Source of the DNA: a bacterium
GTDB lineage: Bacteria; B130-G9
Reading direction: 5' to 3'
NCBI GenBank assembly: GCA_035527515.1
Contig: DATLAJ010000128.1
Coordinates: 1-32,023 of the forward strand
Length of the DNA: 32,023 bases
Under the pieces are notes generated by a model. That model saw only the letters and a program-made list of their open reading frames with translations. It had not been told where the DNA came from and searched no databases. The translations under genes were made by a program, and so were the position numbers. Numbering within the stretch: position 1 is the first letter of the stretch; each line of letters starts with the position of its first letter. Below, one piece after another: positions 6,256 to 16,668 of this stretch.

Positions 6256-6396
6256 TCATGCGGCCTTCTTGTATTGCTCCCAGAGTTGGTCGAATCGGTG
6301 CCTCTTTGATGCCCTCCTTATCGCCATCAAATGCTTGAATCCGTCCTTGCTCCAACGCATGCCCAGCCCCCGAAGCGACTTGGCGAAGCTCCTCAC
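6256..6396 (-). pseudogene. Remnant resembling a transposase C-terminus
   Basis: A minus-strand frame of about 46 codons ending at TGA 6256-6258 reads ...VRSFAKSLRGLGMRWSKDG, then FKHLMAIRRASKRHRFDQLW and EQYKKAA. The GMRWS-x-x-G pattern followed by a basic helix and a Trp near the end recalls C-termini of ISKra4/ISLre2-like transposases. Nothing of the catalytic part is present because the frame runs straight into the stop of the large surface gene at 6393. A remnant of an insertion is inferred; chance similarity is possible. Confidence 0.4.
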
Positions 6397-9300
6397 TCGA
6401 TCACAAAACTGTCCTCGCCAATGTCGCACCAAAGAGTTAGCGTCCCGCTCTCAGTCATCCCCGCCAACAGCATATAATCTCCATGTCTGTTGAACGGCAG
6501 CGACTCGCCTGTTACAGGTATCTGCCAGAGGCCGTCAAGCGTCAATTCGAGGCCCGCAGGCAGTGTGAAAGACGGCAGAAACGCCTCAAGGCCCGGCGCC
6601 CACGCCCAGTCCGGGCCTACGGGCGACCAGAATGCCCCTTCGGGGTCGAGCAGAGCGAGATACACGTCGCCGTCAACGTCATAATGAGGCGCTGAGATGT
6701 GCAGTCCGATGTTTAGCGTGTCGCCGAGAGCATAGGAATCTGCCTGAGCCGATAGCGTGATGAATGGCTCGCCCCCAATTGAGAACTCCACCGCCGCGAT
6801 ATTGGAGATAGCGTCGAGCGTCCCTGGCTCGGTTGCCCCTGCCAGCAGCGTGTAATCGCCGCTTCGGGCGAGATTTGGCACGTCATTGGGAACTGGCAGC
6901 GACCAAGCCGGCATGGAGACGTTAAACCCATGAGGGAGCTCGAAGCTGGTCAGCCAGGGCAGTATGCCCTCAGTCCAAGCCCCGAAGCCAACCGGCGACC
7001 AGAAGCGCTCGCCGTCTCCACCCCAGTTGTAAACCATCACCACGTAAACGTCCGCGTTTACGTCAGACCCGCTATTGGTGCATCCGAGTGAGATAGCGAC
7101 ATCGTCCCCGAACGCGTAACTGCTGCTGTCCGTCCAGACCGACATCTGAAGCGCACCGCCGACCATGTACACAGTCGTGCAGTCCGGCACAGCGGGGGCC
7201 GCCTCAACATTGCCGGCGTTGTCGGTTGCGACCGTATAGAAGTCGAACGTCCCCTCGCCATCGGGCGCAGTGAACTCGAAGCTGCCCGAGCTGCCTGTCT
7301 GTGCACTCCCGTAGTTCTGCCAAGAGCCGCCGTTGAAGCGATAGCGAAGCTGTGTCTGTGCCATACCGGACCCACCATCCGACGCCGTGAACTCAACATC
7401 GAACGGCACCTCGGCAACCTGCCCCGGAGCGGTTGCGACAGACTCCGGTGGCGTTGTGTCGAGCACCGTGGAGCTATCTCCGTTGCCAGATGCGTCAGCC
7501 TCCACGTTGCCAGCGGTGTCCTCCGCTACTGTCTGGAAGTAATACGTGCCCTCACCATGCGCCGCCGTGAAGTCGAATGAGCCGGACGAACCGCTCTCGG
7601 AAAGCTCGCTGTCGGTCCAACTACCCGTGCCGAACTTGTAGTAGAGCTTCGTCTCATCGAGACCACTGCCGCCGGTATCCGAGGCGGTAAACGTCACTTC
7701 GATAACCGAGTTCTTGCTGTACGTTGGACTGCTGCACCCCGAGGAAGGCGCGGTCGCATCATAAATGGTCGCATCGTTGCCATCGCCCGAGGGGCCCGCC
7801 TCCACGTTTCCGGCGTTGTCCTGGGCTTTCGTCTGGAAGCAGTACGTGCCCTGGCCATGCGCCGCCGTGAAGTCGAATGAGCCGGACGAAGCGCTCGCGG
7901 AAAGCTCGCTGTCGGTCCAGGTTCCCGACTGGCCAAACTTGTAGTAGAGCTTCGTCTCATCGAGGCCAGCGCCGCCGGTATCCGAGGCGGTGAAGGTCAC
8001 TTCGATGGCGGAGTTCCTGCTGTACGTTGGACTGCTGCATCCTGACGAGGGCGCGGTCGCATCGTAAATGGTCGCATCGTTGCCATCGCCCGAGGGGCCC
8101 GCCTCCACGTTTCCGGCGTTGTCCTGGGCTTTCGTCTGGAAGTAGTACGTGCCCTGGCCGCCCGCTGCCGTGAAACTGAACGAGCCTGATGCGCCGCTCT
8201 CGGAAAGCTCGCTGTCGGTCCAGGTTCCCGACTGGCCGAACTTGTAGTAGAGCTTCGTCTCATCAAGACCACTGCCGCCGGTATCCGAGGCGGTAAACGT
8301 CACTTCGATAGCCGAGCTCTTGCTATACGTTGGACTGCTGCACCCCGAGGAAGGCGCGGTCGCATCGTGAATGGTCGCATCGTCGCCGCTGCCAGAAGGG
8401 CCCGCTTCCACGTTTCCGGCGTTGTCCTGAGCTTTCGTCTGGAAGTAGTACGTGCCCTGGCCGTCAGCTGCCGTGAAACTGAACGAGCCTGATGCGCCGC
8501 TCTCGGAAAGTCCGCTGTCGGTCCATGTTCCCGACTGGCCGAACTTGTACCACAGCGCGACCGAAGCGAGGCCTGAGCCGCCATCGGACGCCTCATAGGT
8601 AACCGTTATCGCCGTCGAGTTGGAAAATGCTGGCGAGGAACAGCTGCTTTCTGGTACGGTCCAATCGACGGTCGTCTCCGCGTCGGGCACGTCTCGCATT
8701 GCCTCCTCGTGGCCAGCAGCATCCGTTCCGACGGAGATGAACCCATAAACACCCTCAACCGCGTCGTTGGGGGTAAAGGCCAATGTGCCGCGCGAGGCAT
8801 GAACATCGCCCGCAAGGGCCCAATCGGCGCCATCTAACGAGTAATAGACGGAGACATTGGTGACGAGTGTTACTGCATCTGTCGCCAAGACGGAGACCTG
8901 CACTGGGAACGCCGTGGAGTACTGAGGCGCTGAGACGGATGAAACTGGCGGAGCGAGATCGACAGCCAATTCCATGTCCGGCTCAGGCGGCGTGGGCTCG
9001 CGATTGCCGAAGGCGTCCGTGCAGATCGACCACAGCGTGTATATGCCTTCCTGGGCGGGTGCAAAGTCAAGAGAGCCGGTCGCTATGGTTGCTGGCGTGC
9101 CCTCGATCGTCTCGTAAAGTGTGTTACTTCCCTCGAACGAGTACCAGACCTCGACCGACTTCACCCCCGAGAGAAAATGACCTTCCTGGCCCTGATCGCT
9201 TGCGTCATAATAGACTGTGACGGGCAGAGAGCCTGCGATGCTTGGACCTGAAACGGCGGAGAAGGGCACGGTCGAATCGACCAGGACCTCGCAGTCGCAA

Positions 9301-12300
9301 GCGCTGGGGAACGGCTCTGCAAGCAGGTCCTCGTTCAGGGCAATCGTGCAAAATCGATAGTAGCCATCACCGTGGGGCATCTCGAAGACCAACATGCCCT
9401 CGCTCGCCTCCGACGTTACACCGCTGTCGAGCCATTCGTCCGGCCAGTCGACGCCGCCGGGGGCGAACGAATACCAGAGTTCCACGTGATCGTAGCCGGC
9501 CTCGCCAATGTCGGTTGCGTAATCTATCGCGACCGTCGCGGCTGACGCCTCGTCTGGCCCCCAGCAGCTTGAGAGTGCGTAGTCCGGGTTGTAGTCCGTG
9601 ATGCAGTCCGCCGTGTCCTTCATCGCCTCGAAGTTACCCGCCTTGTCCAGTGCGATGGTGAAGAAGCGGTAGATGCCGGCCCCGTAGGCAGGCTCGTAGC
9701 TGATGCTGCCTGCTGTGCCATATTCGTATTCGCCCGTGTATTCCCAATCGCCGGTGCAGGACGCTGTGGCTGCCGTAGAGAAGCAGACATAGAGCTCAAC
9801 ACCGTAAGCCCCCGAGAGCGCATCAGTGATCTCAAAAGCGACCTCGATGGTCGGGTCGTTTTCAACCTCAGGAGCGCTGGAAACGGAGGACGGAAGCCCA
9901 GTGTCGAATACTACTGTGCAGGCCCTGGCCGCAGAGATGCTCTCGACGTTCCCGGCGCCGTCGGTCGCAACGGTAACAAAGCGGTACGTGCCGTCAAGAC
10001 CAGCGAAATCATAGGTGAACGCGCCCGTCGCCTCACCGCTCTCAAGGCCAGTGTTTCCCCACGCGCTGCCGTCTCTGGACACGAAGAGCCGCACCAGCGC
10101 GACGCCCGTGAGCGCATCCGACGCTGAGTACTGCACGCTAATCGTCGCGGCCGAGGTGTATTCAACGTCAACGCTGCACGACGATACAGGCACCGTCGTG
10201 TCAAGGACAGTCTCGCTATCTGCCGCCGCCGGGAAATCCTCCTGGTTGCCGGCGTTGTCCTGCGCACGCGTCGCGAAGTAATAGGTCCCATCGCCCATGT
10301 AGGCAACGAAGGGGAACTGGCCCGAGGTCCCCGTCTGCGCGGCAAGGCCGCTCGTGCCCCAGCCGCCATCCTCGTACTTGTAAAGAAGCGTCGTCGAGTC
10401 CACACCGCTTCTGTCGTCAGACGACGTGAAATCAACCGGTATGGAGGTATTCTTGGACACTACGGGCGACGAGCAGTCCGATTCGGGCTTGACGGCGTCA
10501 TAGCCAAGCTCGCAGTCCGCATCGCCCGGCGCCTCAACGTTCCCCGCATTGTCCGTCGCTATTGTGTAGAGCTCCACGTCGTTCACGCCGCCCGGCAGGT
10601 TGAAACTGAAGCTGCCGCTCGCCTGGCCATCGGTTGTATCGTATTCGGTCCACGAGCCAGAAGGAAGCGGCCGATACCAGAGCGCTATGCTGTCAAGCCC
10701 AGCCAGGTTGTCGCTCGCGGTAAACCACACGTATATCCACTCACGCACCTTGACCCAGCGCGAGCAGTCGCAAGATGAAACAGGCGCCGTGCAGTCATAG
10801 AAGACCGAGCAGTCGGCAGTCCCCGGCGCCGCCTCGACGTTGCCGGCAACGTCCGTAGAGATTGTATAAAACTCGTAAGTCCCATCGCCGTCGCTAAACT
10901 CGAAACTGAACGTTCCCGCATCGCCCGTCTGCGTCTGGCCGCTGTCAGTCCAGCTGCCGCCCGCGTAGCGATACCAGAGCGCCGTCTCGTCAACGCCAGT
11001 GAGGGCGTCGTTCGCCGTGAAATCAACGTCTATGGGGCTGGAATTGGTCGAATCCTCGCAGCTGGCGCTCGAGGTCGGAGGCGTGCTATCGAAGACGGTC
11101 GTGGCGTCCGGGGGCCCGGGAGCGTTCTCCTCGTTCGTAGCCCGGTCGGTCGCTATCGTGTAGAAGTCGTAGGTCCCGTCTCCGCTTCCCAGGTCAACCG
11201 TGAAGCTCCCATTGCCGTCGGTGGATGAGTATCCCGAGTCGTAATACCCGTGGCCGTCAAACTGCATCCAGAGCACCACGCTAGCGACGCCTGAGTTGTC
11301 GTCCGTCGATGTGTAATCCACGTCTATTGTGTCGCTATTGGTGATTCCCGGAGCCGTGCAGCTCGACTGCGGCTTCACGTAGTCGTCATAGACCATCGGC
11401 CCGTCAAGCTCGCCAGAAGCCGGATGCCGCACATACTGCGCAAGCGAGTCGGTCGCCTCAAAATGATACGTTGCTTGGCCGTCCTCGGGGATGGTCCCCG
11501 TCCAGCTGTAAGTGCCGTTGGCCGCGCCGCCGCTCTGCAAGCTCATGCCGTGCGCAGTCCCGTTCACGACCACCTCGATTGAGGACGGCTGGCTGCCGGC
11601 GGGGCTGTAGTAATGGACTGTGAAAGTGAAGTTCACGTCGCTGCGCCCAGAATCGGGCGCGTGCGTGGGGTCGGACAGCTCGGGCCCCACGCTATAGTGG
11701 TAGCCCATGTCCACGATACCCGTGTCGGGCCGACCATCAGTGCAGGTCGTGTACTTGTCGAGGCCGAGCTCGGAAGCGTTCCGGTCGCCAGCGTCTATGC
11801 ACGGGCTATCCTGCCCCTCGGTATCGTAGTGCGATAGATACTCGTCGCCCTGGGCGCCGGTTACGAAGAGCGGCTCCTCTGATATGTTGCCGTTCTCGCC
11901 TAAGCCGTCGCCGTCCGAGATGTTGCAGTGGCGGATGATAAGCTCTGTGCTGCGCACGTCGAGATCGTCATCGTTGCCCCAGAAGATGCAGTTATAGAGC
12001 GTAACGCGGCCCGAATCAGCGGAGTGCATCAGTAAGCCCTGCTTGTGGTTGTTTACGACCGTGCAGTTGATCAGCGTAATGTAGTTGCCGGCCTGGGTCA
12101 TGATGCCGCCACCCAGGTAATAGCTAGGGTCATCCGGGATTGTGTTGTCGGCGATGAGGCAGTTCGTCATCCTCAGACTGTTCCGTAAGCCCAGGCCTAT
12201 CCCGCCTCCGCTGCTGTCGTCATTATTTCTTACGATCCTGCAATCTGTCAGCTCGATGTGAGTCCAATTGTAGGTATAAAGCCCGGCGCCCTTGTTATTG

Positions 12301-12767
12301 TCGCGTATCACGCAGCGCTCCAGCACCAGCGGACCCGGATCCGAAGACGCTGCGACCCCGCCCCCCATCGTGCCCGTGCTATCTCCCCCTGTTATGGTCA
12401 GGTCCGCCAGCGTGCCATGACCGCAGGTGATCTCAAGAACTCGGTAGATACCCTCTGCGTCGATTATGGTCACGTCCGCTCCGGAACCTAGCAGGCTCGC
12501 CCCTCCTCGTTGATACACGATGGGGATCGTTTCCCCGTTACTCGACGGGGAATAGATGCCAGCTGCCAGATGCAGAGCGCATGGGTTGTCGTCAGATGTT
12601 CTGTCCACGGCACAGGTGATTGTCTTCCACGGACTGCCCTCCGAGCCGTCACCGGTCGTGTCGCTCCCGTTGACGGGGTCCACATACCAATCCGTCGCGA
12701 TTGCTGTCATCCCGACGAACAGAATCACGAATGCCGCCAAAATCGCACACAATTGTCTAGATCTCAT
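6393..12767 (-). CDS. Giant exported beta-helix / Ig-like repeat protein (2124 aa)
   Basis: Probable surface or secreted protein. The ATG at 12767 follows AAGGAGG with good spacing. Residues 1-25 are a Sec signal peptide. TDWYVDPVNGSDTTGDG and SEGSPWKTI start a DUF1565-type right-handed beta-helix that ends near residue 358 with SPCIDAGD...DTGIVDMGYHY. One Ig-like domain follows, then about 14 tandem Ig-like repeats of 80-101 residues, each starting like (T/A)PxSSCSSP and ending GTYxFxTxAxDNAGNVE. Many repeats carry a Cys pair. The last 235 residues are two copies of a module also present in the proteins at 20499 and 29316 (YALGDTLNIGL...DVYLALLDPEGAFWSP). No LPXTG, PEP-CTERM or typical T9SS C-terminal signal is seen, so the export route past the inner membrane is unknown. 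It is the last gene of a same-strand series of four exported proteins. Carbohydrate binding or adhesion is a guess. Confidence 0.9.
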   Translation of the reverse strand: MRSRQLCAILAAFVILFVGMTAIATDWYVDPVNGSDTTGDGSEGSPWKTITCAVDRTSDDNPCALHLAAGIYSPSSNGETIPIVYQRGGASLLGSGADVTIIDAEGIYRVLEITCGHGTLADLTITGGDSTGTMGGGVAASSDPGPLVLERCVIRDNNKGAGLYTYNWTHIELTDCRIVRNNDDSSGGGIGLGLRNSLRMTNCLIADNTIPDDPSYYLGGGIMTQAGNYITLINCTVVNNHKQGLLMHSADSGRVTLYNCIFWGNDDDLDVRSTELIIRHCNISDGDGLGENGNISEEPLFVTGAQGDEYLSHYDTEGQDSPCIDAGDRNASELGLDKYTTCTDGRPDTGIVDMGYHYSVGPELSDPTHAPDSGRSDVNFTFTVHYYSPAGSQPSSIEVVVNGTAHGMSLQSGGAANGTYSWTGTIPEDGQATYHFEATDSLAQYVRHPASGELDGPMVYDDYVKPQSSCTAPGITNSDTIDVDYTSTDDNSGVASVVLWMQFDGHGYYDSGYSSTDGNGSFTVDLGSGDGTYDFYTIATDRATNEENAPGPPDATTVFDSTPPTSSASCEDSTNSSPIDVDFTANDALTGVDETALWYRYAGGSWTDSGQTQTGDAGTFSFEFSDGDGTYEFYTISTDVAGNVEAAPGTADCSVFYDCTAPVSSCDCSRWVKVREWIYVWFTASDNLAGLDSIALWYRPLPSGSWTEYDTTDGQASGSFSFNLPGGVNDVELYTIATDNAGNVEAPGDADCELGYDAVKPESDCSSPVVSKNTSIPVDFTSSDDRSGVDSTTLLYKYEDGGWGTSGLAAQTGTSGQFPFVAYMGDGTYYFATRAQDNAGNQEDFPAAADSETVLDTTVPVSSCSVDVEYTSAATISVQYSASDALTGVALVRLFVSRDGSAWGNTGLESGEATGAFTYDFAGLDGTYRFVTVATDGAGNVESISAARACTVVFDTGLPSSVSSAPEVENDPTIEVAFEITDALSGAYGVELYVCFSTAATASCTGDWEYTGEYEYGTAGSISYEPAYGAGIYRFFTIALDKAGNFEAMKDTADCITDYNPDYALSSCWGPDEASAATVAIDYATDIGEAGYDHVELWYSFAPGGVDWPDEWLDSGVTSEASEGMLVFEMPHGDGYYRFCTIALNEDLLAEPFPSACDCEVLVDSTVPFSAVSGPSIAGSLPVTVYYDASDQGQEGHFLSGVKSVEVWYSFEGSNTLYETIEGTPATIATGSLDFAPAQEGIYTLWSICTDAFGNREPTPPEPDMELAVDLAPPVSSVSAPQYSTAFPVQVSVLATDAVTLVTNVSVYYSLDGADWALAGDVHASRGTLAFTPNDAVEGVYGFISVGTDAAGHEEAMRDVPDAETTVDWTVPESSCSSPAFSNSTAITVTYEASDGGSGLASVALWYKFGQSGTWTDSGLSESGASGSFSFTAADGQGTYYFQTKAQDNAGNVEAGPSGSGDDATIHDATAPSSGCSSPTYSKSSAIEVTFTASDTGGSGLDETKLYYKFGQSGTWTDSELSESGASGSFSFTAAGGQGTYYFQTKAQDNAGNVEAGPSGDGNDATIYDATAPSSGCSSPTYSRNSAIEVTFTASDTGGAGLDETKLYYKFGQSGTWTDSELSASASSGSFDFTAAHGQGTYCFQTKAQDNAGNVEAGPSGDGNDATIYDATAPSSGCSSPTYSKNSVIEVTFTASDTGGSGLDETKLYYKFGTGSWTDSELSESGSSGSFDFTAAHGEGTYYFQTVAEDTAGNVEADASGNGDSSTVLDTTPPESVATAPGQVAEVPFDVEFTASDGGSGMAQTQLRYRFNGGSWQNYGSAQTGSSGSFEFTAPDGEGTFDFYTVATDNAGNVEAAPAVPDCTTVYMVGGALQMSVWTDSSSYAFGDDVAISLGCTNSGSDVNADVYVVMVYNWGGDGERFWSPVGFGAWTEGILPWLTSFELPHGFNVSMPAWSLPVPNDVPNLARSGDYTLLAGATEPGTLDAISNIAAVEFSIGGEPFITLSAQADSYALGDTLNIGLHISAPHYDVDGDVYLALLDPEGAFWSPVGPDWAWAPGLEAFLPSFTLPAGLELTLDGLWQIPVTGESLPFNRHGDYMLLAGMTESGTLTLWCDIGEDSFVIE
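7450..8650 (-). repeat. Near-identical 303-bp tandem repeats inside the giant gene
   Basis: Four consecutive Ig-like repeats are nearly identical at DNA level. The landmark GCGCGGTCGCATC recurs near 7748, 8051 and 8354, a period of 303 bp (101 codons), with the older neighbours clearly diverged. This is recent in-frame amplification and a likely site of copy-number change or short-read misassembly. Confidence 0.85.
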
Positions 12768-12844
12768 GAGTCTGCCTCCTTCTGCTTAAAGGTTGTAGGT
12801 TGAGAATTGTCGGTCGTTCGTTGTAGCTCCTTGGTTCGCGGAGC

Positions 12845-13012
12845 TTTGGAGTGCGGCGGCTTGACGCCGCTTTCATTGGTGGCTTGACACCACCCTCTAA
12901 TAGATGCTTGTCTCGAACCTGCAAGCGGCCATCGAGAAAACGTCCTGTCTTTCAAGACACGCCGCGTCAAGCCGCGGGGAGCCAAAGCGGCGTCAAGCCG
13001 CCGCACTCCAAA
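12845..13012. mobile_element. MITE-like palindromic element, copy A (168 bp)
   Basis: Bounded by 29-bp terminal inverted repeats, 12845-12873 and 12984-13012, which are exact reverse complements (outer end TTTGGAGTGCGGCGGC). Inside are further hairpins sharing the loop CTTGAC: GGTGGCTTGACACCACC at 12878-12894 and a CCGCG-stem version at 12962-12977. Copy B at 16080-16255 has the same order of parts in the opposite orientation, with a diverged core. No ORF is present, so any movement would need an enzyme from elsewhere. A hairpin GGCGGTTCACGAACCGCC follows at 13014-13031. Confidence 0.75.
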
Positions 13013-13056
13013 AGGCGGTTCACGAACCGCCCCTACAAGAGCGGATGTGCCAGCTC

Positions 13057-14052
13057 TCATTTGTCGTCTTTCTTTTTGGCGTTGACGCCGGCGTGGGAGA
13101 GATTGTAGTCGCCCTGGGCGCCTGAGACGAAGAGCGGGTCCTGGGAGATGTTCCCGTTCTCGCCTAAGCCGTCGCCATCCGAGATGTTGCAGTGGCTGAT
13201 GGAGTAGTCGAGCCCCTCCTTAAAACGGATATCGTCGTCGTTGTCCCAGAAGATGCAGTTGTAAAGCCTGACCCATCCGGTACTGGCGTATTTATACAGG
13301 CCGTGTGCCTCGTTGTGGGCGATCGTACAATTTATCAGTGTAGCTTTTTGCTCGCCGTAAAAATAGATACCGCCCCCGTTCAACCCAGTAGTGTTCATGG
13401 CAATCAGGCAGTTGGTTATGAGTATGGTGTTGGAATAATTGAACGCCATTGCTCCGCCGTGGTACGGCCCGGAGTCATTGCTAGTAAAAGCGCAATCGTT
13501 GAATTGGCAGTGGAGGCCTGCCCTGACGGAGCGAAGACCTCTTCTCGAGTTATCCCTTACGATGCAGTGGTCAAGCGTAAATGATGCAGGGCCGCCACCG
13601 GGAGACGACGAGTCCAGGACCAACCCCCCGTAGGATCCCCCAGTTATGGTCACACGCGAGATGGTCGTGTGGTGGGCACGTACCACCACGGCTTTCTCGG
13701 TGCTCTCCGCGTCGATTGTCGTCAGCTGTGCCCCTGCGCCCGCGAGTGAGTAGAACTCGTTGTGGTCCACCGAAAGGCCCGCGCCGAGGTAGATTGGGAA
13801 CGTCTCCCCATTGCCCGACGGTGAATACAACCCGGGCGCAGCGTGCAGCGTGCACGGGTCCTCCTCCCTGCCGAGACCGCCAATGATCGTGCGCGAGTAC
13901 GTAATGGTCCTCCAGGCGTCCGCCCAACTAGTCCCTCCGTTGCCGTTGCTCCCATTGATGGCATCGACATACCAGTCCGTCGCGCTCGCTGTTATGGTGA
14001 TAAGCGCAATTACGAATGCCGCCAACCCCACACAGAATCCACTTGCCTTCAT
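13057..14052 (-). CDS. Exported right-handed beta-helix protein (DUF1565-like), short form 1
   Basis: 331 residues from the ATG at 14052, which has GGAG eight bases upstream; a GTG at 14061 would add MRA only. Signal peptide MKASGFCVGLAAFVIALITI through TASA, then DWYVDAINGSNGNGGTSWAD, the usual N-terminal cap of DUF1565 beta-helix proteins. Helix rungs contain the NCxFxxN and ITNCLIAMN patterns, ending in LYNCIFWDNDDDI...HCNISDGDGLGENGNISQDPL. Unlike the giant protein it stops right after GDYNLSHAGVNAKKKDDK and lacks the SPCIDAG...VDMGYHY cap. It is a tandem paralogue of the next gene (14232-15260) and shares its odd lysine-rich tail. Surface structure or polysaccharide binding is possible; function is unknown. 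Confidence 0.85.
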   Translation of the reverse strand: MKASGFCVGLAAFVIALITITASATDWYVDAINGSNGNGGTSWADAWRTITYSRTIIGGLGREEDPCTLHAAPGLYSPSGNGETFPIYLGAGLSVDHNEFYSLAGAGAQLTTIDAESTEKAVVVRAHHTTISRVTITGGSYGGLVLDSSSPGGGPASFTLDHCIVRDNSRRGLRSVRAGLHCQFNDCAFTSNDSGPYHGGAMAFNYSNTILITNCLIAMNTTGLNGGGIYFYGEQKATLINCTIAHNEAHGLYKYASTGWVRLYNCIFWDNDDDIRFKEGLDYSISHCNISDGDGLGENGNISQDPLFVSGAQGDYNLSHAGVNAKKKDDK

Positions 14053-14120
14053 CGCCCTCACTCCTCACTCTTATGTTAGGTTCTCTTTACAATCCATTCT
14101 GCATTCGCTATACACATATC

Positions 14121-14226
14121 CGCAGCTCCGCGCGAGGCCTTTTGTCTTCGGCCCCGCGCAGAGCCGCCTTTCGTTTAGGGGTTGGGCCGGCGGTGCGCCA
14201 AGCCGCCAGCCCGCCCCTTTACCACC
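14121..14226. repeat. 106-bp intergenic hairpin repeat, copy 1
   Basis: Nearly identical to 15333-15438, the few differences being at the outer edge, in one loop and at a single base. It contains two potential hairpins: GCGCGAGGCC/GGCCCCGCGC around a 10-nt loop, and GGCGG/CCGCC around TGCGCCAAG. It lies immediately downstream of the 342-residue beta-helix gene (minus strand), as copy 2 lies downstream of the 13-Cys gene, so it may act as an mRNA stabiliser or processing signal within the operon. Confidence 0.8.
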
Positions 14227-14231
14227 TGTTA

Positions 14232-15260
14232 TCATTTGTTCTTTGCCTCCTTCTTTTTGGCGTTGACGCCGGCGTGGGCGAGGTAGTAGTCGCCCTGGGC
14301 GCCGGTTACGAAGAGCGGGTCCTGGGAGATGTTGCCGTTTTCGCCCTGACCGTCCCCGTCCGAGATGTTGCAGTGATAGATCTCGCACGGCACGCCCCCC
14401 TCAATGCAGATGTCGTCCTCGTTGTTCCAGAGAATGCAGTTGTACAGCTTAACGTAGTAGTTGGACGTCATTGCGTAAATGCCATGTTTGCTGTTGCGAG
14501 CCATCGTGCAGTTTATCAGAGTGGTCCTGCACCCCCACTCGATCACGATTCCCCCTCCCTGTCCGGCGGTCGTTGAGTTGTCGGCGATGAGGCAGTTTGT
14601 GATGGTTTGCTTTTGCCTAGGATCTAAGGCGATCGCTCCACCTCGGTTGACGCCTACGTCCTGATTGCCCGTGAATACGCAGTCATTCACCTTGACAGCT
14701 CCGGCATCAAACACCTTGAGGCCGTCCCCGCCGGAATTGTCCTTGATGATACAACGCTCCAGCGTGAATGAGCCCGAGCTTCCCATGATCGAGGTGATCG
14801 AGTTCCTCATCCCGCCGGCGTTCCCTCCTGTGATGGTCAGGCCGCTAACAGCGATGTAATACCCGGAGGTGTGGAGCACAAGCTCGGTCTCCTCCCCGTC
14901 AAAGATGGTAGCGTGAGGTCCCACACCCAAGAGGATGCCATAGTGGGGCGTGGCCGGGCCCCCGCCAGGCGGATACGTATTGTACTGCTGGAACTCGATA
15001 GGAAATGTCTCTCCATTCGTTGATGGCGAGTAAACGCCAGCCAAGGCGTGCAGCGCCACGGGGTTTTCCTCGGTTCCCTGGCATTTGGTTTGGCTGTTGG
15101 CATACGTCAGCGTCTTCCAAGGCGCTGTCGCCGAGCCGCCGCCCGTGCTGTCGCTCCCGTTCTCCGGGTCGATGTAGTAGTCGTCCGCGAACGCCATTAG
15201 TGAGCTAAAAGCGAGCGCCAACGCCGCCAGCAGAACCCAGAAACCTCGAGTCGTCATCAT
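14232..15260 (-). CDS. Exported right-handed beta-helix protein (DUF1565-like), short form 2
   Basis: 342 residues. The ATG at 15260 follows AAAGGAG with eight-base spacing. Signal peptide MMTTRGFWVLLAALALAFSS to about LMAFA, then DDYYIDPENGSDSTGGGSAT, the DUF1565-type cap, and beta-helix rungs with TLERCIIKDNSGG, ITNCLIADNS, TLINCTMARNS and LYNCILWNNEDDI. It ends GDYYLAHAGVNAKKKEAKNK, like its paralogue at 13057, without the SPCIDAG cap. The two genes with their spacers form a tandem duplication of roughly 1.2 kb; the protein cores have diverged more than the C-terminal block and the spacer repeat. Probably co-transcribed with its neighbours. Role unknown. Confidence 0.85.
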   Translation of the reverse strand: MMTTRGFWVLLAALALAFSSLMAFADDYYIDPENGSDSTGGGSATAPWKTLTYANSQTKCQGTEENPVALHALAGVYSPSTNGETFPIEFQQYNTYPPGGGPATPHYGILLGVGPHATIFDGEETELVLHTSGYYIAVSGLTITGGNAGGMRNSITSIMGSSGSFTLERCIIKDNSGGDGLKVFDAGAVKVNDCVFTGNQDVGVNRGGAIALDPRQKQTITNCLIADNSTTAGQGGGIVIEWGCRTTLINCTMARNSKHGIYAMTSNYYVKLYNCILWNNEDDICIEGGVPCEIYHCNISDGDGQGENGNISQDPLFVTGAQGDYYLAHAGVNAKKKEAKNK

Positions 15261-15332
15261 GTGTCTCTCTCCTTTTTGGTTTAGCTTTACACTTCCATTC
15301 TAATGCGTTACAAACTTGTTCCTGTCATTATT

Positions 15333-15438
15333 CGGAGCCCTGCGCGAGGCCTTTTCTTCTTGGCCCCGCGCAGAGCCGCCTTTCGTTTAGGGGTTAGGCC
15401 GGCGGTGCGCCAAGCCGCCAGCCCGCCCCTTTACCACC
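15333..15438. repeat. 106-bp intergenic hairpin repeat, copy 2
   Basis: Second copy of the 14121-14226 repeat, same orientation, ending nine bases before the stop of the 13-Cys gene. The loop of the first hairpin differs (TTTTCTTCTT against TTTTGTCTTC) while both stems are kept, which suggests the structure matters. Confidence 0.8.
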
Positions 15439-15446
15439 AACTCAGC

Positions 15447-15959
15447 CTATGGCTCCCAGCAGTAAACATCGTAGCTGCCGCTGACCACACACGACGATGT
15501 GGCCTGAGAGTCGTAGATCTTGTAGTAGTAGGTCTCATCCGACTTAACGACGAACGCACAGCTGTGATAGACGCCGTAGTCGCAGGGCAGCTGGTTAACC
15601 GAATCGTAATCGTGAGTCATCACCATCGGAATCGAGCAATCGCACGGTTGCTCGTCTTGCCTCACTTCAAGGACGATTGTGGCCGCCGTATGACAACAGC
15701 AATTGTCTGGGTCGTACAGCTTGTGCTTGACCTCCATCTGCATCTTGCAGTAGCCCTCCCATATTGGCAGACAGCTGGAAATCGTTGCGTCGTAGAGGCA
15801 CGAGTCGGTGCAGCCGTCGAGCGTTCCGCCGCCGTTGCTAGCGTAAACTGGCGGCGTGAACGACACGTTGGTCGTCGCCGAATCGTTACCGAACAAGATC
15901 ACCAGCCACAGCGAGAGAACAGCAAGAGCTGCTATCCCTATCAAAAGAGACTTCTTCAA
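15447..15959 (-). CDS. Exported cysteine-rich protein (170 aa, 13 Cys), TTG start
   Basis: The start codon is TTG at 15959, decided by a full Shine-Dalgarno AAAGGAGGTGAT nine bases upstream and by the N-terminus MKKSLLIGIAALAVLSLWLV, a signal peptide or signal anchor. The mature part has thirteen cysteines (residues 50, 54, 63, 71, 87, 88, 89, 106, 108, 126, 134, 157, 167) including a CCC run and C-x-C, so multiple disulfides or metal binding are likely. I recognise no family. It is the first gene of the minus-strand surface-protein series and lies downstream of the promoter at 16511-16540. The rare start combined with a perfect ribosome site may tune expression. Confidence 0.75.
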   Translation of the reverse strand: MKKSLLIGIAALAVLSLWLVILFGNDSATTNVSFTPPVYASNGGGTLDGCTDSCLYDATISSCLPIWEGYCKMQMEVKHKLYDPDNCCCHTAATIVLEVRQDEQPCDCSIPMVMTHDYDSVNQLPCDYGVYHSCAFVVKSDETYYYKIYDSQATSSCVVSGSYDVYCWEP

Positions 15960-16079
15960 AGCAAATCACCTCCTTTTGTTGGTTGATACTCCGCCGAAGG
16001 GTTTTGCGGGTCTCGGCCGGCGCAAGCCGGGAATGTTCCCGTAAGGGACTTGGCGGAGGCTAGTGTCGTATGAATAGGC

Positions 16080-16255
16080 TTTGGAGTGCGGCGGCTTGAC
16101 GCCGCTTTGGCTCGCCGCGGCTTGACGCGGCATGGGGACTCTTGGAGCACGGGCGATTCTCTGGATCACCGCTTCGATGTCCGAGAGAAAGGTCTATTAG
16201 ATTGTGGTGTCAAGCCACCACCAACGAAAGCGGCGTCAAGCCGCCGCACTCCAAA
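16080..16255. mobile_element. MITE-like palindromic element, copy B (176 bp)
   Basis: Same architecture as copy A (12845-13012) in opposite orientation. The 29-bp perfect terminal inverted repeats are at 16080-16108 and 16227-16255, with CTTGAC-loop hairpins at 16114-16131 (GCCGCGGCTTGACGCGGC) and 16204-16221. A diverged core retains a shared GGTCTATTAGA / CATCTATTAGA segment. No ORF. It sits between the 13-Cys gene and its likely promoter. Confidence 0.75.
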
Positions 16256-16256
16256 A

Positions 16257-16320
16257 GGCGGTTCGTGAACTGGCCCTACGCGGATCGTGTTTCCTTTGGG
16301 CGGTTCGTGAACCGCCCCTA
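16257..16320. repeat. GTTCGTGAAC hairpin repeats
   Basis: Two copies of the same hairpin: a damaged one at 16257-16275 (GGCGGTTCGTGAACTGGCC) and an intact 20-bp palindrome at 16298-16317 whose core is GCGGTTCGTGAACCGC. Both are followed by CCTAC. The same unit flanks MITE copy A at 13014-13031, so the elements tend to be nested together. Confidence 0.7.
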
Positions 16321-16510
16321 CAAAGGCCGAGGCGCTGCGCCTCGTTCTCGAACTGACCATCCAAACGTCCCTCGCCCTCAGACTCCGAGCCCTTGCCGCT
16401 TTCGGCCTGCAAAGCCGTTCATCGCAGCATTCTATCTCGAGGCCGGTGGGAATCGCCGCCTGGAAAGCAGCGACTCGGCGCCAGTCTTCAGTTACCCTTA
16501 CGTTGATTTT
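16321..16510. other. No gene seen
   Basis: 190 bases with no plausible coding frame, between the hairpin repeats and the minus-strand promoter. GGCGCTGCGCC at 16331-16341 is a small palindrome. Together with flanking repeats this makes 15960-16913 a gene-free stretch of about 950 bases. Confidence 0.5.
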
Positions 16511-16540
16511 ACTATGCTAAGAAAGTTCAATTCTTGTCAA
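16511..16540 (-). promoter_or_regulatory. Candidate promoter for the surface-protein series
   Basis: Minus strand: TTGACA (16535-16540), 18-bp spacer, CATAGT (16511-16516). The -35 is consensus, the -10 matches four of six. It points toward the 13-Cys gene about 550 bp away, across MITE copy B, so any leader would be long and heavily structured. Confidence 0.45.
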
Positions 16541-16668
16541 GCTCTTTTTTTCAGTGATCGGGAGATAATATCTTGGTTTAGTGCCTTGATGTGGCTCCGG
16601 CACGCCGCTTTTCTGATTTGAGCTATTTTTGTAGCCCGTTATATCCTGCCTGCCACATTGGCCTGAAT

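Follow-up and report, generated by a model that had tools for sequence, protein, structure and literature searches.

GGAG-footed hairpin pairs in a B130-G9 genome as probable non-autonomous REPIN-like elements of a RAYT

REPINs and BIMEs of RAYTs (TnpA-REP), known from E. coli, Pseudomonas and Stenotrophomonas, are short hairpins paired in inverted orientation, with the tetranucleotide foot outermost (head-to-head). They occur in many intergenic copies, and their cognate HUH/Y1 transposase gene is flanked by the same hairpins. The foot is GT(A/G)G, group-3 REPs are perfect palindromes, and REPs have been described as not conserved between species (PMC6006769). In TIRtrons, or TIRYTs, which include cases from Acidobacteria, a RAYT-like gene lies within non-GTAG inverted repeats, some of them self-complementary (Di Nocera et al. 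2013, PMC3733652); 20 of the 26 published TIRYTs belong to subclass 2.1 and carry C-terminal HTH domains (PMC6006769). In IS200/IS605 elements, finally, the left and right hairpins differ from each other and share one orientation.

The elements reported here share with REPINs and BIMEs the inverted hairpin pairs with an outer foot, the many intergenic copies and the hairpin-flanked transposase gene, and with group-3 REPs the perfect palindrome. They would thus work like a REPIN without being a canonical GTAG REP, since their foot is GGAG and neither GTAG nor GTGG. The TIRtron motif GGGGWSAS, which holds for part of the published TIRYTs, is absent from their end unit (TNTGGAGTGC...GCTTT). With IS200/IS605 they have in common the HUH/Y1 fold, hairpin ends and, as expected, single-strand chemistry and the lack of a target-site duplication, but they are built from inverted copies of one hairpin.

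The window, that is, the whole stretch of 32,023 nucleotides analysed, contains two copies of an element of about 170 bp that is in all probability non-autonomous: copy 1 at 12845..13012 on the plus strand (168 bp; A end left, B end right) and copy 2 at 16080..16255 on the minus strand (176 bp; B end left, A end right). All four arms are made of one 29-bp end unit (REP), TTTGGAGTGCGGCGGCTTGACGCCGCTTT, itself a hairpin, and the arms of each copy are perfectly complementary over 29 bp. In copy 1, 12845..12873 (+) is matched by its inverted copy at 12984..13012 (−), and in copy 2 the B end at 16080..16108 (+) is complementary to the A end at 16227..16255 (−). This confirmed the original prediction of a MITE-like element with palindromic 29-bp inverted ends, present in two opposite orientations. 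The unit at 12845..12873 consists of TTT-GGAG-T, the hairpin GCGGCG/GCTTGA/CGCCGC (stem 12853-12858 with 12865-12870) and TTT; TTTGGAGT stands before the end hairpin GCGGCG-GCTTGA-CGCCGC and TTT after it. No match to the end 29-mer arose in dinucleotide shuffles of the window, even at a tolerance of 3 mismatches.

Two further hairpins with the same CTTGA loop, and with stems other than that of the ends, lie inside each copy. The resulting order, end unit, H2, core, H3, end unit, is the layout of the element in the window's genome. In copy 1, H2 (TGGTG-GCTTGA-CACCA) is at 12877..12892 (+) and covaries in relatives as helix 2, the core is at 12893..12961 (+), and H3 (CCGCG-TCAAGC-CGCGG), helix 3 of the covariation set, is at 12962..12977 (+). 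In copy 2, H3 (GCCGCG-GCTTGA-CGCGGC) is at 16114..16131 (+) and H2 (TGGTG-TCAAGC-CACCA as read on the plus strand) at 16205..16220 (−). The loop had been given as a constant CTTGAC: it is indeed shared by all internal hairpins, but is more aptly given as GCTTGA with 5-6 closing base pairs. The reading of three different stems holds, and other copies show further compensated variation. The core had been called diverged, and it is 63% identical between the two copies versus 100% for both end units; CTCTAATAGA at 12895-12904 in the core of copy 1 has CTATTAGA as its counterpart in copy 2. As single-stranded DNA, the two copies fold much more strongly than their shuffles do (z -9.1 and -8.8). Neither element contains an ORF, and an Rfam search of 12500-16600 returned no match. 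When the flanks were read directly, no direct repeat indicative of a target-site duplication was seen beside either copy, which is weak evidence alone.

Both copies sit in intergenic gaps flanking three minus-strand genes, two of which encode right-handed beta-helix proteins. The elements were said to bracket a surface-protein operon segment; positionally they do, but nothing ties them to those genes. Related secreted proteins are encoded at 6393-15260 (−), namely by two short right-handed beta-helix genes and a gene for a 2124-aa protein with many repeated domains, and these proteins have N-terminal and internal motifs in common. The window also holds repeats of the type GTAGGGGCGGTTC(A/G)(C/T)GAACCGCC at 13014-13036, 16257-16279 and 16299-16321. 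The first, a GTAG-tagged REP (GTAGGGGCGGTTCGTGAACCGCC read on the minus strand; 13014..13036, −), begins one base beyond copy 1, and the second, a GTAG-type REP with 2 mismatches (16257..16279, −), one base beyond copy 2. Both lie outside the elements, so that two of the three GTAG repeats start one base past a GGAG element, both times on its right-hand side.

The window's assembly (3.47 Mb in 183 contigs, 95.6% complete, with some contigs ending in GGAG element repeats) was searched for further ends. The 23-nt unit was matched with up to 3 mismatches at 46 sites, and its reversed control at 0. As many as 26 of these ends form 13 inverted plus/minus pairs with start-to-start spacings of 121-179 bp, six at exactly 147, and several unpaired ends have decayed partners. 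Because 26 of the 46 ends pair at such spacing, the notion of mostly independent single hairpins, which would make them simple REPs, fails in this genome. A comparison of nine copies from this genome gave about 91% identity for the end units and 44% for the cores. The commonest variant end is GGAGTGCGGTGGCTTGACACCGC, whose change is a compensated pair. In a MAG of the same genus, the GGAG elements are near-identical to one another, which suggests that they spread there recently.

A second MITE family of 315-322 bp, with inverted ends CCAATAATCAGATTGA, occurs in the same genome at 94 end-like sites (up to 2 mismatches; examples at L273, L277, L278, L285, L287 and L299) and has no copy in the window. 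GTAG REPs inside it resemble those flanking the genome's only Pfam-level Y1 gene. Most GGAG elements of the phylum adjoin, in either orientation, the conserved flanks P (CCNANAATCAGATTGAC) and Q (TTGCACCCG.TGGGTGA), for instance at L001, L006, L007, L015, L035, L059 and L075, as though nested at a single position of the 315-322-bp MITE. P and Q were considered as part of the GGAG element and rejected: P is an end of the 315-322-bp family, and Q resembles its interior. The window copies are without P/Q flanks.

Across elements, the stems vary yet stay paired, while the loop, the GGAG foot and the CTTT tail are constant. The foot is GGAG, with GGAC in a minority, and conservation begins and ends abruptly, at TNT|GGAG on one side and CGCTTT on the other. 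Pairing holds for 98.3% of the stem cells across 16 elements from the window's lineage. Changes on both sides of a pair were found in 17 cells versus 5.6 after shuffling (0 of 500 shuffles as high), and the covariation signal was destroyed by sliding the stem partners. The strength of the covariation rests on these cells and on the covariation score, because the count of pairs with double changes was ordinary (106 of 500 shuffles). In other genomes, 57 partner ends, found solely as lying opposite an exact end, gave 217 Watson-Crick pairs out of 228 inner stem pairs, versus a mean of 154 and a maximum of 170 over 2000 shuffles. The tabulation of stem variants thus revealed compensatory changes. 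Moreover, 47 of 60 partner ends have a stem or loop unlike the opposite end and retain a hairpin of their own; the conserved structure is each local hairpin, not a long end-to-end duplex. The suggested selection for a structure is borne out by the compensated stems, and as to whether it acts as DNA or RNA, the hairpins are probably read as single-stranded DNA.

The unit is widespread. The exact 26-mer GGAGTGCGGCGGCTTGACGCCGCTTT is present in at least 116 stretches of GTDB species genomes. By record title, its hosts among the matches listed are Acidobacteria, Verrucomicrobia, Planctomycetes, Lentisphaerae, Kiritimatiellia, Hydrogenedentes, Coatesbacteria, Armatimonadetes and Proteobacteria, about nine phyla in total, with contamination possible for the phylum labels of individual MAGs. 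Copy number ranges from several to dozens in many of these genomes, and the stems are particular to each genome; an Armatimonadetes MAG, for example, has GCGAGG. Single units are also frequent in other phyla, and an inverted partner lay within 260 bp for 60 of 104 exact matches. Three IMG/VR viral contigs carry one GGAG unit each (L267:8312-8340, L268:11300-11328 and L269:8942-8970), with no partner end nearby; such contigs are possible carriers between hosts.

The original prediction had advised looking for a transposase with matching ends, of IS200/IS605 or DDE type. Such an enzyme was found, IS200-like in being Y1/HUH and more exactly a RAYT. GGAG-tagged hairpins flank a single HUH/Y1 gene of about 180 aa in Acidobacteria, Verrucomicrobia, Planctomycetes, Armatimonadota and Hydrogenedentes, and they lie beside a gene of the same RAYT family in the window's own GTDB family. 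One 184-aa ORF of an Acidobacteria MAG (G013) lies between two inverted TTTGGAGTGCGGCGGCTTGACGCCGCTTT ends 593 bp apart, the second of which immediately follows the ORF's stop codon; in two genomes the identical unit, letter for letter, stands on both sides of the RAYT ORF. The cognate RAYT scores below or near the Pfam cut-off (PF01797) and was found only by following up weak hits. By contrast with the IS200 model NF033573, which gave these proteins 14-18 bits or no score (cut-off 55), the NCBIfam model NF047646 (REP_Tyr_transpos) was passed by the 184-aa product and its homologues with 93, 83.7, 87.3 and 91.1 bits (cut-off 80). The protein also matches the E. coli TnpA-REP structure 4er8 (E 5e-10). 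The HUH motif NHYH is invariant in these proteins. Their likewise invariant Y133 is aligned with Y115 in 4er8, the residue changed in the catalytic mutant (Y115F) of E. coli TnpA-REP (PMC8266576).

A profile search of 60 genomes yielded many relatives. The RAYTs that go with the unit show about 37-63% identity to the one discovered first. A GGA(G/C)-tagged hairpin lay within 450 bp of the gene in 21 of 21 family members versus 1 of 63 other Y1 genes (Fisher 7e-19), both groups coming from the same genomes, which were chosen for holding the unit, and the 63 being slightly inflated by a few loci that are second views of one gene. It is this association, together with the NF047646 scores, that makes the elements a REPIN/MITE of a RAYT and neither IS200/IS605 proper nor a DDE element. 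As the proteins diverge the loops change (TTCT, TTTA, CTTG in longer stems, CAACG, CCCC); despite this, GGAGTGCG and CGCTTT are mostly retained. Two autonomous copies have double-hairpin ends resembling the window's four-hairpin design (L152/L236 and L139/L237), one of them seen with both ends. The family tree has poor internal resolution and on its own does not give the direction of transfer, and plasmid and phage records contained no RAYT of this family. Other GGAG-footed palindromes, CGACGGCG-TCC and GGCCGGGGC-TTCA, were observed beside more distant Y1 genes (L183:584-631; L264 around its Y1 gene), hinting that GGAG feet are wider than this RAYT family.

Profile and protein searches of the window's own assembly for a cognate RAYT came back empty; its absence is not proven, because the assembly is incomplete and some contigs end in these very repeats. 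Within the window's GTDB family, one genome (G062, whose match is identical to that of G044, MAG AUK292) has a RAYT of the family with one in-frame TAG, adjoining a GGAG REPIN. In the other three of the phylum's four genomes searched, none was found. From the same-genus assembly a repeat-flanked RAYT could be missing, because several GGAG copies are at contig ends. Two other candidate mobilisers were rejected. The window genome's sole Pfam-level Y1 gene (C146) is flanked by GTAGCCG... REPs, not by GGAG units; the top-scoring PF01797 genes of 47 genomes have REPs mostly of GTAG type, and none stands beside a GGAGTGC hairpin.

Collectively, we consider with high confidence that the window elements are non-autonomous REPINs/MITEs, in which an inverted pair of GGAG-tagged hairpins is recognised, cut and joined in trans by a RAYT. 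Because the same hairpin flanks a small single-strand DNA transposase gene in other bacteria, they are most likely stripped-down passengers of such an enzyme. By analogy with the RAYT literature on folding, guide and cleavage (PMC8266576, PMC6006769), the ends would fold whenever their strand becomes single, for instance on the template of the lagging strand, and the RAYT would bind the loop and stem of the folded end. GGAG may act as a guide pairing with a CT cleavage dinucleotide, for which the invariant CT of ...CGC-TTT is the candidate; we infer this role because in GTAG it is A3G4 that pair with CT, and both bases are retained in GGAG. The catalytic tyrosine would then cut, and the element would be joined at another place with no duplication of the target site. 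By this action the window copies would have spread while a cognate RAYT was present.

It may be, though we rate this below even chances, that the window copies are fixed relics, REPINs made by a RAYT, immobile since its loss and kept, or not, only by chance. This is the stopped version of RAYT mobilisation, and with respect to origin the two are compatible. The strongly diverged cores fit such an end state, as does the lack of an intact cognate RAYT in any of the phylum's four genomes, the one in G062 having its in-frame stop. Yet neutral decay does not give ends that are about 91% identical with cores at 44%, nor compensated stems, and the near-identical copies of the same-genus MAG suggest recent spread.

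A role as transcribed RNA elements (mRNA stabilisers, processing sites or attenuators), with hairpins selected as RNA, seems improbable to us. The strong hairpins are intergenic and next to genes, and some REPs have been suggested to act as RNA (PMC3733652), but 12500-16600 lacks any Rfam match, both orientations occur, the GGAG foot and CTTT tail outside the stem are more constant than an RNA structure needs, and such hairpins flank the transposase gene in 21 of 21 cases. Even less credible is a classical DDE-transposase MITE with terminal repeats palindromic by chance: inverted termini, conserved length and the lack of an internal ORF would suit it, but neither window copy has a target-site duplication, HUH/Y1 RAYTs are the only genes repeatedly enclosed by matching ends, and the local hairpin is conserved in place of an end-to-end duplex (47 of 60 partner ends differ).

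As RAYT passengers, the elements depart from known REPs in several respects. Their GCTTGA loop is more constant than the stem, the REPIN of the window's lineage has four hairpins, and the 26-mer recurs in about nine phyla among the matches listed, unlike the species-bound REPs of the literature. The GGAG-family RAYTs, of about 175-185 aa, end shortly after the core with no long tail, unlike the HTH-tailed TIRYTs, and the motif set NHYH / WD / YVHxNP in a protein of about 180 aa matches no row of the 2018 subclass table. No paper describing the GGAG unit was found in open-access main texts, including by search with the sequence string. What is new is the GGAG foot, the conserved loop, the four-hairpin composites and the exact 26-mer shared across phyla, most likely as a new branch within the known REP/RAYT system of mobile repeats. 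More tentatively, the RAYTs might form an undescribed subclass whose GGAG-footed REP moves horizontally across phyla, partly as bare 29-bp units, and outlives its transposase by trans-mobilisation, the four-hairpin form being derived.

Published accounts present REPs as species-specific and as bearing a GT(A/G)G tag almost without exception; because at least one published search required that tag, a class abundant among the phyla of soil and sediment may have been overlooked. An identical 26-mer combined with diverged RAYTs would amount to a strong natural experiment on what the enzyme reads in a REP, be it foot, stem, loop or tail, given that stems are freely exchanged with compensation and loops vary along with the enzyme. 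Finally, the single-gene element of about 620 bp would provide a clean model pair for REP mobilisation, a process treated in published work as poorly understood.
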